In this document: positions 30,022 to 43,123 of the stretch, piece after piece | Layout: each line of letters starts with the position of its first letter | How positions within the stretch are numbered: the first letter of the stretch is position 1 | Source of the DNA: an uncultured Clostridia bacterium | GTDB lineage: Bacteria > Bacillota > Clostridia > Christensenellales > Borkfalkiaceae | Assembly (NCBI GenBank): GCA_947625385.1 | Contig: CANQOB010000011.1 | Coordinates: 1-47,164 of the forward strand | Length of the DNA stretch: 47,164 nt | Direction: 5' to 3' | Position numbers and translations under genes: made by a program | The notes under the pieces: generated by a model | Seen by the model: the letters and a program-made list of their open reading frames with translations, nothing else | Databases searched by the model: none | Told to the model about the DNA's origin: nothing

Positions 30022-31140
30022 TTACAGTTTTTTGACAAAACAGCGTCTGCGCTTGTGCTGTTCGGCACGGAACACCTTCCACTGGTTGATGATGTTGTAG
30101 TTCTCTTCGAGATTGAGGTTGGTCTCGCAGTACTTGACGCCCAGCTCGCGCATCATGCCCATCACCTCGGTGATGAGCACGGAGCCGATGCCCTTGTTGT
30201 TGTATTCGTCCACCACGCCGACGAGGGCGAGGTCGAGAATCTCGGGCTTCTTGACCGAACGGAGGATGCGCAGCAGGGTGGGAAGGGTGAGTCTGCCGCC
30301 CGAGGGCTGCACCGCCTTTGCGATGGAGGGGAAGCAGAGCCCGAGACAGACGGGATCTTCGTTCTCGTCGAGCACGACGCGCACGAAGCGCAGATCGATG
30401 ATCTGGCGGAAGCTCTTGATGAGCTCCTTTTTCATCTTGTCCGTAAAGGGCACGGTGCCGTAGATGTCCCGATAGGATTCGTCGAGCACGGCAAAGAACT
30501 TGTCCGCATATTTTTTGAGAAATTCGTTGGTATTTTTCGCCACGCCGAGGTGGAGGCGGTACCGCTCCATGAGCTTTTCGCAGATGCGTTCGAGCTTGAC
30601 GTTCTCCTCCTCGGGGAGATAGAGCTTGTGCTCGATCCAGTCCACTTCCTTTTCATAGCCGAGCCCCTCGATGAGCGCCTGATAGTAGGGATAGTTGTAT
30701 TGCTCCTCGAAGGTGGACAGCTCGCCGAAGCCCTCGATGAGCAGCCCCTCGCGTTCGAGGTCGGAAAAGCCGAGGGGACCCACGACCTCCTCCATTCCCT
30801 TCTCCCGCGCCCAGTTTTCCACTGCGGAGAAGAGGGCGGCGGCGACTTCCTTGTCGTCAACGGCGTCGAAGCGGGTGAAGCGCACGCGCTTTTGTCCCCA
30901 CTTGGCGTTGGCGGCGCGCTGCAAGATGCCCGAGATGCGCCCCACGGTCTTTCCGTCCCGTTCGGCGAGATAGTAGACGGCTTCCGAATCGTCATAGTAG
31001 TGATAATCGGGGGAAAACAGGCGCATTTCATCCCCGTAGAGCGGCGGAACGAAGTTCGGCTCGTTACGGTAGAGGCGGAGGGGGAATTCCACAAATTGCT
31101 TTTGCTGTTTTTTCGTGGTAACTTCTGTAACGGTGATCAT
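30022..31140 (-). CDS. GNAT-fold acetyltransferase-like protein
   Basis: A 372-residue protein with an N-terminal half resembling a degenerate GNAT domain (FVPPLYGDEMRLFSPDYHYY; AERDGKTVGRISGI) and a C-terminal GNAT domain (LALVGVVDEYNNKGIGSVLI with the acetyl-CoA-binding NKGIGS turn, about residue 310). It ends in a very basic tail KVFRAEQHKRRRCFVKKL. Substrate unknown. The ATG follows a perfect TATAAT by exactly 6 nt and lacks an RBS, so the operon mRNA (GNAT, YwaF-like, aminopeptidase) is predicted leaderless at this first gene. Confidence 0.8.
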   Translation of the reverse strand: MITVTEVTTKKQQKQFVEFPLRLYRNEPNFVPPLYGDEMRLFSPDYHYYDDSEAVYYLAERDGKTVGRISGILQRAANAKWGQKRVRFTRFDAVDDKEVAAALFSAVENWAREKGMEEVVGPLGFSDLEREGLLIEGFGELSTFEEQYNYPYYQALIEGLGYEKEVDWIEHKLYLPEEENVKLERICEKLMERYRLHLGVAKNTNEFLKKYADKFFAVLDESYRDIYGTVPFTDKMKKELIKSFRQIIDLRFVRVVLDENEDPVCLGLCFPSIAKAVQPSGGRLTLPTLLRILRSVKKPEILDLALVGVVDEYNNKGIGSVLITEVMGMMRELGVKYCETNLNLEENYNIINQWKVFRAEQHKRRRCFVKKL

Positions 31141-31146
31141 ACCTGT

Positions 31147-31175
31147 ATTATAAAAAATACTGCGCGTTTTGTCAA
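31147..31175 (-). promoter_or_regulatory. Leaderless promoter of the GNAT operon
   Basis: Minus strand: TTGACA (31175-31170), 17 nt, TATAAT (31152-31147), then six bases ACAGGT and the ATG at 31140. Confidence 0.88.
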
Positions 31176-31216
31176 TGATTGCGCCGTAAAATCTTGTTTC
31201 GCACGAAAATTTTTTC

Positions 31217-31245
31217 TTGACATCGCCCGATTCCCTTCTTATAAT
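31217..31245 (+). promoter_or_regulatory. Promoter of the esterase gene
   Basis: TTGACA (31217-31222), 17 nt, TATAAT (31240-31245). An in-frame ATG (31252) follows after 6 nt, and a second ATG (31267) has its own RBS. Confidence 0.85.
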
Positions 31246-31266
31246 AAAGGTATGGGAGGTCATGTG

Positions 31267-32007
31267 ATGTTCGATACGTTTTCTGTCAAAGTTCCCTCTC
31301 CCGGCGGGGAGGAAGAGCGCACCGCGCGCGTCTATATCCCCGAAGGACGGGGGAGATTCCCCGTACTCTATCTCTTCGACGGGCAGACCGCCTTCTTCGA
31401 CGAGACCGCGCCCTACGGCAAGGCGATCGCGATTCACGAGATCTTGCAAAAACTCGGCATGCGCGTCCTGGTCGCCGCCGTCGATTGCAGCAAGGAGCAC
31501 CGTCTGAGCGAATATTCGCCCTATCCCTTCCGCCACGGGGAATTCGTTTCATGCGGCGCGGGGGAGGCGCACATGCGCTGGCTCACGGGCGTGTTCAAGC
31601 CCATGATCGACGCGCGCTATCCCACCCTTGCGGGACGGGAGAACACGGCGGTCATGGGAAGTTCGATGGGAGGTCTTATGGCGCTCTATGCCGCGGCGGA
31701 GTTTTCCGCGTATTTTTCCGCGGCAGTCGCGCTCTCTCCCAGCCTGTGGGTGAAGGAAGGCGCCGAGCGCATGCTCACCCGTCTCCCCAAGGACAGCGAG
31801 ATCTATCTGGATTACGGGAAAAAGGAATATCATGCGCACGAGGGCATCCGTATTTGCCTGCAAAGAGCCGTCGATGTCCTCTTCGAGCAGGGCGTTCCGT
31901 TCACCTTTTCCCTCTCCGAGGGCGGCGAGCACAACGAGGCGAGCTGGCAGGAGCGTCTGCCCTCCGCGCTCACGGCGCTCTCCTTCTTCAAAAGGTTTTC
32001 GGAATAA
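31267..32007 (+). CDS. Esterase (PF00756-like, alpha/beta hydrolase)
   Basis: A 246-residue esterase of the enterochelin-esterase/EstD type. VLYLFDGQTAFFDE is the early strand, AVMGSSMGGLMALYAA holds the nucleophile Ser, LDYGKKEYH lies in the acid region and GGEHNEASWQERLP carries the catalytic His. No signal peptide. Two starts are possible: ATG 31267 with GGGAGGT 7 nt upstream, chosen here, or ATG 31252, which would be leaderless and five residues longer. The substrate cannot be told. Confidence 0.82.
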   Translation: MFDTFSVKVPSPGGEEERTARVYIPEGRGRFPVLYLFDGQTAFFDETAPYGKAIAIHEILQKLGMRVLVAAVDCSKEHRLSEYSPYPFRHGEFVSCGAGEAHMRWLTGVFKPMIDARYPTLAGRENTAVMGSSMGGLMALYAAAEFSAYFSAAVALSPSLWVKEGAERMLTRLPKDSEIYLDYGKKEYHAHEGIRICLQRAVDVLFEQGVPFTFSLSEGGEHNEASWQERLPSALTALSFFKRFSE

Positions 32008-39974: not shown

Positions 39975-40003
39975 TTGCAAAGCGCAAAAAAGTATAGTAT
40001 AAT
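39975..40003 (+). promoter_or_regulatory. Leaderless promoter of nadD
   Basis: TTGCAA (39975-39980), 17 nt, TATAAT (39998-40003), six bases GGACAC, then the nadD ATG at 40010. There is no RBS. Confidence 0.85.
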
Positions 40004-40009
40004 GGACAC

Positions 40010-41143
40010 ATGAAAATCGCTGTATTCGGCGGGTCGTTCGACCCTGTTCATAGCGAGCACGTCGCTCTGGTGCGTGCCGCCGTTGACGTGCTCGGGCTCG
40101 ATAAAATTTTTATCGTGCCCTCTTTTGTCGCACCGCACAAAAAAGACGGGGCAAAAGCTTCCGGTGCGCAGCGGCTCGACATGCTGAAACTCGCCTTCCG
40201 CAGAGTCAAAAAAGCGGAGGTGTGCGACTTCGAGATCGAGAGCGAGGGGATGAGCTACACCTATCTCACCTGCCGCCGCTTCCGCGAACTCTATCCCGAC
40301 GCGAAGATCTTTCTTCTGATGGGCGCGGATATGTTCGCGGACTTCCCCACGTGGAAGGAACCGGACGATATCCTCTCCAACGCCGAACTTGCCGTCGTCT
40401 CGCGCAACGAGCCCCTCTCCGGGGGCGCGGTGAAAGCGTTCCGCGAGCGGTTTTCCGCCGACTTCACGGAGCTTCCCTTCCGGGGGGACGGGACTTCCTC
40501 GACGGCGATTCGCACGCTGCTCGCGTTCGGCAAGCGTCCGCGCGCCCTCGACGGAAAGGTCTATGCCTATATCCGCCGCAGCGGTCTCTATTCTTATCCC
40601 GCCGTTCCCTCCGCGATCAAGCTCGAGAGCGCAGAGCGGAGAAAGCATAGCCTGCGCGTGGCGCTCATGGCGTGCGGCAGGGCGAAGAGTCTGCACATTC
40701 CCGAGGAGAAGGCGCTGCTCGCGGCGGCGCTGCACGACTGCGGCAAGTCCGTCCCGCTCTCCTCTTACCTGCTTGCGGGGTTCGACATCCCGCAAGGCGT
40801 CCCGGCGCCCGTCATGCACCAATTTACGGGAGCCTACCTTGCGGAACACGTGTTCGGCGTCACGGACGGGGAGGTGCTCGACGCCATCCGCTATCATACG
40901 AGCGGCAGGGCGGGGATGGGCACGCTCGAAAAGCTGATCTATCTCTCCGACCTCTTGGAATCCGACCGTGATTTCGCCGGAATCGCCAAGCTCCGCGAGA
41001 TGTTCTATTCCGACCTCGACGCCTGTTTTTTGGGCAGTCTCGCTTTGCAGATCGACCATCTCCGCTCCAAAGGAGGGGAGATCTGCCGGCTGACCGAGGA
41101 GGCGTATGAATGGGAAAAACGCAAGCAAATTGTGGAAACTTGA
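40010..41143 (+). CDS. nadD: NadD-YqeK fusion: nicotinate-nucleotide adenylyltransferase plus HD hydrolase
   Basis: A 377-residue two-domain protein. Residues 1-190 are NadD: KIAVFGGSFDPVHSEH with the nucleotidyltransferase HxxH-type site, PSFVAPHKKDG, LLMGADMFADFPTWKEPDDI and the C-terminal STAIRTLL. Residues about 205-377 are an HD domain of the YqeK type (KHSLRVALMACG, LLAAALHDCGKSVP with HD, AIRYHTSGRAGMGTLEKLIYLSDLLE), whose free-standing relatives hydrolyse Ap4A. In many Firmicutes nadD, yqeK and rsfS are three adjacent genes; here the first two are joined and rsfS follows. The mRNA appears leaderless. Confidence 0.93.
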   Translation: MKIAVFGGSFDPVHSEHVALVRAAVDVLGLDKIFIVPSFVAPHKKDGAKASGAQRLDMLKLAFRRVKKAEVCDFEIESEGMSYTYLTCRRFRELYPDAKIFLLMGADMFADFPTWKEPDDILSNAELAVVSRNEPLSGGAVKAFRERFSADFTELPFRGDGTSSTAIRTLLAFGKRPRALDGKVYAYIRRSGLYSYPAVPSAIKLESAERRKHSLRVALMACGRAKSLHIPEEKALLAAALHDCGKSVPLSSYLLAGFDIPQGVPAPVMHQFTGAYLAEHVFGVTDGEVLDAIRYHTSGRAGMGTLEKLIYLSDLLESDRDFAGIAKLREMFYSDLDACFLGSLALQIDHLRSKGGEICRLTEEAYEWEKRKQIVET

Positions 41144-41574: not shown

Positions 41575-41819
41575 CAATCTTTGAAGGAAATGCGCTTGGG
41601 GTCGGAATAGGACGACTTCGTGCGCTTTTTCTTTTTCTCGACGATATAGTAGACGGGCTCGGGCGCGGCGGGCGGGTCCTTTTTCGGCTCCTCGGCGGGG
41701 AGATGTTTGCGCATGCGCAGCCCGAGGCGGATGAGCTTAAAAAGATGCACGGCGATCACGACGGTGATGAGGACGATGAGCGTATAGAGGGCTCCCGCGC
41801 CCTGAACGGAGATAGTCAT
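41574..41819 (-). CDS. Small single-pass membrane protein
   Basis: An 81-residue protein of unknown function: one N-terminal membrane helix (about 8-28, ALYTLIVLITVVIAVHLFKLI) and a basic, Pro- and Lys-rich cytoplasmic tail (EEKKKKRTKSS type). The ATG lies 6 nt after a TATACT box and has no RBS, so it may be leaderless; the -35 region is weak. A longer ORF upstream in frame has no start support. Confidence 0.65.
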   Translation of the reverse strand: MTISVQGAGALYTLIVLITVVIAVHLFKLIRLGLRMRKHLPAEEPKKDPPAAPEPVYYIVEKKKKRTKSSYSDPKRISFKD

Positions 41820-41858
41820 GCTGCCAGTATAGCGCCAAAGGACTGTCATAAATTGCGT

Positions 41859-42712: not shown

Positions 42713-43069
42713 TTATACCAAGAGATAGGGCAGGAGCATGAAGAAAAATACAATCGCAAGGACGACGAGACAGCAGATGATTCCCTTTACGCAGAATTTT
42801 ATTTCGTCACGCTGCTTTGGAGACAGGTCCGTTCCGGGGCGCTGCGGCGAATTCTGCGGCAGCCCGTACTCCGCCGCCTGCGTGTACAGTTCCTCGGCGG
42901 ACAGACCGAGCGCTTCCGCGATCTTCGGCACGCAGGATGCGGGCGCAAAGGTCTGTTCCCAACGCAGAAGGGAGGATTTCGAGGCATAGATCATCTCCGC
43001 AAATTCACGCAGGGAATAACCCGCCTCCTCCCGTTTTTTTCTGATGAAAGCTCCGTTGATCTTTTCCAT
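42713..43069 (-). CDS. XRE regulator with C-terminal membrane anchor
   Basis: A 118-residue protein. Residues 5-60 form a Cro/CI HTH (FIRKKREEAGYSLREFAEMI; ASKSSLLRWEQTFAPAS), a 25-residue linker follows (ELYTQAAEYGLPQNSPQRPG), and one membrane helix ends the protein (about 92-118, CVKGIICCLVVLAIVFFFML). It is therefore a membrane-tethered DNA-binding protein. The ATG at 43069 is 7 nt after TATAAT and has no RBS, so it is predicted leaderless. It is divergent from two small proteins across an intergenic region packed with repeats. Confidence 0.85.
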   Translation of the reverse strand: MEKINGAFIRKKREEAGYSLREFAEMIYASKSSLLRWEQTFAPASCVPKIAEALGLSAEELYTQAAEYGLPQNSPQRPGTDLSPKQRDEIKFCVKGIICCLVVLAIVFFFMLLPYLLV

Positions 43070-43076
43070 TACGATC

Positions 43077-43123
43077 ATTATAGCATGATTTTGCAAAAAC
43101 GGCAACGGATTCCCGCCGTTTTT
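43077..43123 (-). promoter_or_regulatory. Promoter of the tethered XRE gene with overlapping inverted repeat
   Basis: Minus strand: TTGCCG (43105-43100), 17 nt, TATAAT (43082-43077). The -35 lies in a perfect 9-bp inverted repeat AAAAACGGC/GCCGTTTTT (43095-43103 and 43115-43123), which could be an operator or a terminator-like element isolating the divergent promoters. Confidence 0.65.

Follow-up and report, generated by a model that had tools for sequence, protein, structure and literature searches.

A fixed spacing between -10 box and start codon suggests a minority of leaderless genes in a family of Clostridia

INTRODUCTION

In the Actinobacteria and in Deinococcus-Thermus, genes have been described in which the -10 box lies directly before the start codon and a Shine-Dalgarno (SD) sequence is missing, and leaderless genes were predicted there to make up about 20% and about 40% of genes, respectively (PMC3160421). 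According to the same genome survey (Zheng et al. 2011, PMC3160421), leaderless genes of the Firmicutes are found mainly in the Lactobacillales and Mycoplasma. In three streptococci, 8.6 to 9% of the mRNAs were reported to be leaderless, and many of these are conserved between species (PMC6431027). For the Clostridia, a map of transcription start sites (TSS) of Clostridioides difficile gives 15 leaderless candidates, a TSS map of three solventogenic clostridia gives leaders under 6 nt for about 2 to 3%, and an RNA-seq study of Clostridium acetobutylicum reports 212 leaderless transcripts, some of them stress-dependent. The parts of these accounts available to us describe no fixed 6-nt promoter geometry that is conserved across a family.

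Here, we describe such a geometry in a genome of the Clostridia and in its relatives. The arrangement is like that of streptococci and lactococci (Lactobacillales), which are also Bacillota and in which the survey found the -10 box just before the start codon (PMC3160421), but these organisms belong to a different class, and in our case leaderless messages are inferred from DNA alone. Moreover, the survey reports a very strong TG for Lactococcus, where the -35 box is probably missing (PMC3160421), whereas most of the sites described here keep a TTGnnn -35 box at 17 nt. The share that we estimate, about 8 to 11% of the first genes of transcription units, is close to the figure reported for streptococci, is to be set against the much larger predictions for genes of Actinobacteria and Deinococcus-Thermus, and lies above the published figures for C. 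difficile and the solventogenic clostridia, which belong to the same class if the class label of the relatives holds. A literature search at the level of the order (Christensenellales) yielded no report of leaderless genes in this family. The kind of initiation is already known, but for this lineage we found no earlier report of it.

MATERIALS AND METHODS

The stretch of DNA analysed (the window, 47,164 nt) corresponds to contig C11; the assembly has 1.66 Mb in 63 contigs. Together with further stretches that total 400 kb from the same genome, it gave a sample of 447 kb (27%), in which a home-made caller that does not use upstream signals predicted genes and their starts solely by codon usage and the type of start codon. 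A caller trained on the longest open reading frames was dropped since it picked many antisense frames. A -10 box was TATAAT with at most one mismatch and with A2 and T6 kept, and an SD sequence was a run of 4 or more contiguous nt of AAAGGAGGTGA, two or more of them G, that lies within the 20 nt upstream of the start codon and stops no closer to it than 4 nt. The strict pattern was TTGACA-N16-18-TATAAT followed by ATG after N5-7; ATG after N10-12 served as the control. For pooled statistics, the genome under study was combined with its relatives G055, G008 and G040 (630 genes), and G028, which has no gene with the box at 6 nt, was left out and counted with the outgroups. The nadD loci compared were the best 30 of 199; they include 28 of the 29 genomes of the same genus, with the genome under study counted and G606 missing.

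RESULTS AND DISCUSSION

Promoters in the window

Direct reading of the window confirmed all five sites of the original prediction, and each has the order of elements that had been described: four consist of TTGnnn-N17-TATAAT, and in four the start codon follows after 6 nt (Table 1). It had also been stated that a ribosome binding site is missing at all five, and indeed none of them scores as SD. The list of sites was incomplete, in that a sixth one, in front of the divergent gene for an esterase (PF00756, 72.3 bits), had been missed; an SD sequence is absent there as well. SD sequences are present in 25 of the 41 scored genes of the window. The name "C92" found no support, since the 314-aa protein has no match in Pfam or NCBIfam.

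Table 1. Promoters and genes with the start-proximal -10 box in the window (nt = nucleotides, aa = amino acids)
Feature	Position	Strand	Description
nadD leaderless promoter (candidate)	39975..40012	+	TTGCAA-N17-TATAAT-GGACAC-ATG, read directly
nadD promoter, parts	-35 TTGCAA 39975-39980; -10 TATAAT 39998-40003; ATG 40010-40012	+
nadD fused to YqeK-type HD domain, 377 aa	40010..41143	+	Pfam, NCBIfam
GNAT gene leaderless promoter (candidate)	31138..31175	-	TTGACA-N17-TATAAT-ACAGGT-ATG, start 31140
GNAT-family protein, 372 aa	30022..31140	-	PF00583, 28.5 bits, residues 301-338
Esterase gene site	31217..31254	+	TTGACA-N17-TATAAT-AAAGGT-ATG, start 31252, match to the strict pattern
C92-like gene, 314 aa	7964..8001	-	TTGACA-N17-TATAAT-GAGCCC-GTG, start 7966
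Small membrane protein promoter	41817..41852	-	TTTATGACA box, 12 nt, TATACT, GGCAGC, ATG 41819
Small membrane protein, 81 aa	41574..41819	-	no Pfam match
XRE gene promoter	43067..43105	-	TTGCCG-N17-TATAAT-GATCGTA-ATG, start 43069, spacing 7

The start of nadD is unambiguous, because an in-frame TAG just upstream, inside the promoter, leaves only one possible start codon; the conserved GGSFDPVH motif of NadD begins at residue 7. Pfam recognized both halves of the fusion (CTP_transf_like and HD), and TIGR00482 and TIGR00488 likewise scored above cut-off. The XRE protein matched HTH_19 and HTH_3 of Pfam, and upstream of the small membrane gene a TTGACA-like -35 box was not found at 17 nt. Our caller, which sees codons only, chose other starts for the C92-like (TTG 7903), GNAT and XRE genes. 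For GNAT, the start at 31140 is backed by homologues, whose own starts lie at or a few codons from the aligned Met; the starts of the C92-like and XRE genes are candidates.

The GNAT and esterase genes are divergent, and their consensus promoters lie back to back, both with a spacing of 6 nt (31138-31254). The ATG of the esterase gene is immediately followed by GGAGGT, with a second in-frame ATG 15 nt downstream (31252-31269, plus strand). From this arrangement, a single transcript could start in both the leaderless and the SD way.

A one-position peak in the genome

The original prediction called for a genome-wide count of such -10 boxes together with an RBS score. In the 447-kb sample, this count gave a one-position peak made up of SD-less genes. 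The -10 box was located at distance 6 in 14 of the 370 genes that had enough sequence upstream (8 of the 14 boxes are exact), where about 1 was expected. The neighbouring distances gave 3 genes at 5 nt, 4 at 7, 1 at 8 and 3 at 9, and the background (distances 0-4 and 10-18) had a mean of 1.0 per position, which corresponds to a Poisson P of about 5e-12; with a background of 3 it would be 3e-6. SD sequences of at least 4 nt were present in 240 of the 370 genes and in none of the 14 with the box at 6 nt. Internal ATG codons (n=2148) had the box at distance 6 in only 6 cases (0.3%, versus 3.8% of the gene starts). Their mean was 0.0007 per position, and the count at distance 6 was above that mean; some of these internal ATGs may be true starts of genes for which the caller had gone too far upstream. 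The strict pattern, searched in the whole genome, occurred 14 times with N5-7 versus 3 times with N10-12, and two of these three matches use the same promoter as an N5-7 match. In 20 of the 187 genes that come first in a transcription unit, a promoter preceded a candidate start by 5 to 7 nt. Subtracting a background of 1 to 2 per position leaves about 15, and this is the basis of our estimate that roughly 8 to 11% of such genes may be leaderless.

In the pooled set, 32 of 630 genes had the box at 6 nt, and 30 of the 32 lacked an SD sequence, compared to an SD rate of 418/630 (66%) (P 1.5e-12). The two exceptions, both from G008, have their SD-like letters in front of the -10 box. The start codon was ATG in 32/32 of the genes with the box and in 289/305 SD genes, and C or T stood at -1 in 32/32 versus 229/305 (P 2e-4). 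For 13 of the 14 genes of the genome under study, an upstream neighbour was contained in the sample, and in all 13 cases the gap was at least 70 nt, as expected of first genes of transcription units by the criterion of distance; the 14th had no neighbour there. Downstream of the start codon no signature was found: neither were codons 2-8 richer in A or AT nor were the first 36 nt less structured, whether 14 genes of the genome under study were compared with 179 SD genes or 32 pooled genes with 305.

Occurrence within and outside the family

Of the four family members sampled, three show the peak again. In samples of 100 kb, the box was found at distance 6 in 4/87 genes of G055, which belongs to the same genus, and in 8/90 and 6/83 genes of G008 and G040, which belong to other genera; G028, also from another genus of the family, had no such gene (0/73). 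Samples of the same size from outside the family gave 0/78 for G424 (same order), 1/83 for G441, 1/65 for G396 and 0/74 for G382. We also looked for an independent leaderless lineage in the four genomes of the class with the largest N5-7 excess, two of which share one family, and found no peak in any of the samples of 54 to 98 kb (G428, 0/36; G367, 0/46; G386, 1/90; G440, 0/78). Hence, none of the eight samples from genomes of the same class outside the family contained more than one gene at 6 nt, and three contained one. The statement that leaderless genes are rare in Clostridia agrees with these samples and with the two TSS maps, but the 212 leaderless transcripts reported from RNA-seq of C. 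acetobutylicum speak somewhat against it.

The strict pattern was counted in whole genomes as well. N5-7 versus N10-12 matches were 55 versus 19 in the genus (5 genomes) and 341 versus 179 in the family (61 genomes), each with the genome under study included, and 550 versus 466 in the class (117 genomes) without it, a weak excess (P 0.02). In a draw of 299 genomes from the phylum, the genome under study had the highest N5-7 count (14; the next was 9). In the draw from the class, it was exceeded by G428 (22) and G367 (19), both of which are about twice its size and showed no peak in the sampled stretches, and equalled by G364 (14).

Conservation of the spacing in orthologues

nadD is present in 199 of 201 genomes of the family. 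Among the best 30 loci, TTGnnn-N17-TAnAAT precedes the ATG by 6 to 10 nt in all 28 loci of the same genus, with spacings of 6 (21 loci), 7 (2), 8 (3), 9 (1) and 10 nt (1), so that leaders would be 1 to 4 nt long in 7 of the 28. The other two loci belong to G060 (genus g3), with the promoter at 6 nt, and G029 (g11), with none. The 22 loci at 6 nt contain 20 different discriminators. In two of the 28 loci (L084 and L090), SD-like letters lie just upstream of the start and overlap the promoter region. Six relatives from a separate set, at least four of which coincide with loci of the best-30 set, had the promoter at 6 nt (L021, L024, L025, L026), at 9 nt (L022) or not at all (L023). In 20 loci from eleven other genera, the promoter was found at 6 to 10 nt in 10, each time with a 17-nt spacer, whereas 4 had an SD sequence instead and 6 had neither. 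A -10-like box (AATAAT) is also present 6 nt before the ATG of the gene that diverges from nadD in G008 (L035:11442-12233, minus strand, and L035:12290, plus strand).

For the small membrane gene, a homologue was detected in 32 of the 36 nadD loci searched (its own included), 29 of them with the start in range. Among these 29, the distance of TAnnnT is exactly 6 nt in 28 and 7 nt in one; three loci duplicate others, and 25 of 26 distinct upstream sequences have 6 nt. The letters of the -10 box vary while the spacing stays. This gene also has a box that ends in TGACA (41844-41852, minus strand), 12 nt before the -10 box here and 13 nt in at least one locus, whose TGACA is kept in 22 of the 29 loci. 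In the samples of the genome under study and of G055, the TGACA-type box was found only at the small membrane gene, with about 1 chance match expected in the former. For a sigma-A -35 box the distance is too short; perhaps a regulator binds here.

Other genes differ between genera. uvrC has the box at 6 to 9 nt in 19 of 30 loci of the family, 12 of them at 6, and no box in 11: the own genus (5/5) and g5 (4/4) have it at 6 nt, g6 (4/4) at 6 to 7 and g11 (3/3) at 8, while it occurs in 2/4 loci of g8, 1/5 of g3 and none of g10 and g2. Of 29 control loci of the class outside the family, 25 have an SD sequence at some candidate start of uvrC; these 29 and the own locus include four that look leaderless, namely the own one, that of G424, which belongs to the same order, and two with a poor -35 box. 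polA has the geometry in 5/5 loci of the genus and in 0/25 elsewhere, where 18/25 have an SD sequence. Several SD-led polA loci of sister genera (e.g., L231, L232 and L239 of the set L226-L255) have a -10-like box further upstream, which looks like the trace of an inserted leader or of a shifted start. For GNAT, 6 nt were found in only 2 of 30 homologues (G000 and G042), and one more has a weak box at 3 nt. With tblastn, the fetched loci contained no homologue of the XRE and C92-like genes and none of the esterase outside its own genome. Homologues place the starts of nadD, uvrC, polA and GNAT at or within two codons of the ATGs considered here; therefore, mis-called starts are not the explanation.

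A model for initiation and its alternatives

The geometry is real and beyond chance. What was observed, namely the geometry itself, its genome-wide peak, the exclusion of SD sequences and a spacing that is kept in orthologues over a changing discriminator, supports the proposal of leaderless mRNAs made in the original prediction. We consider it very probable that the messages are leaderless with AUG at +1 and that this is a standing minority mode beside SD-led initiation in the family. Counted from the end of the -10 box, the A of the ATG is base seven, a usual start position for this type of promoter. The promoters would be of the housekeeping (sigma-A) type, and their transcription start would be the first base of the start codon: RNA polymerase would initiate 7 nt past the -10 box, with a pyrimidine at -1 and the A of AUG at +1, and the resulting mRNA would begin with 5'-AUG. 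The ribosome, probably a 70S monosome by analogy to published work on other bacteria, would start there without SD pairing, and individual genes would cross between the leaderless and the SD-led mode over genus-level time.

Alternatively, the housekeeping and DNA-repair genes nadD, uvrC, polA, nth, murG and tmk could form a stable leaderless class with a separate initiation route that is regulated apart from the SD-led genes, possibly when 30S initiation is limited. This we regard as doubtful: the turnover of gene membership between genera (GNAT, polA), together with the missing downstream signature, speaks for a drift of single genes between two modes that are both tolerated. It is also unlikely that the -10 boxes are genuine and yet secondary, with most transcripts starting further upstream and a non-SD signal in the leader being used. 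Such leaders would be compatible with the RTGACA box that is conserved farther upstream at the small membrane gene and with the nadD loci of other genera that have neither promoter nor SD sequence (6/20). However, the peak covers a single nucleotide and SD sequences are excluded from it, the spacing is fixed over changing letters, which a transcribed leader would not need, and for several genes the upstream gap is only 70 to 120 nt.

Even less probable are very short leaders of 1 to 4 nt with a start that floats around the ATG, the sole need being that there is no room for an SD sequence. The 7 of 28 nadD loci with 7 to 10 nt, uvrC at 8 nt in three g11 loci and the XRE gene at 7 nt would fit, but the peak is exactly at 6 (14 genes versus 3 at 5 and 4 at 7), where 28/29 loci of the small membrane gene are found as well. 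Since the counts peak exactly at 6, AUG at +1 is favoured as the optimum. Finally, -10-like hexamers that lie near start codons by chance might explain the one gene at 6 nt in 3/8 genomes outside the family (samples of 36 to 90 genes), but for the genome under study this is refuted by the Poisson statistics and by the rarity of the box at internal ATGs.

If the messages are indeed leaderless, a family of Clostridia would join the regular users of this mode, in a class in which TSS maps found few. Since related genera hold polA, uvrC, nadD and GNAT in a state that appears either leaderless or SD-led, these genes would be a natural series for studying switches between initiation modes. Furthermore, gene finders that weigh SD sequences or codon usage alone can mis-call leaderless starts.

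Genes with the start-proximal box

The genes with this geometry are a mixed housekeeping set. Those of the genome under study with the box at 5 to 7 nt include polA, uvrC, nth, tmk and genes for HTH regulators, an M24-family peptidase, a CDF transporter, a recombinase of the phage integrase family and a fusion of chorismate mutase and cytidylate kinase, as well as a murG-like glycosyltransferase gene that is below the NCBIfam cut-off; 5 of the 20 proteins scanned, the C92-like one included, had no Pfam match. In the relatives, the murG-like gene (G008) and the gene for the M24 peptidase (G055) appear again, joined by lepA, a gene for alanine racemase, one that resembles MTA/SAH nucleosidase genes and one for an HTH regulator (G040). 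Chorismate mutase and cytidylate kinase are encoded in one open reading frame (L002:12135-13166), which begins with GTG 5 nt after TATAAT.
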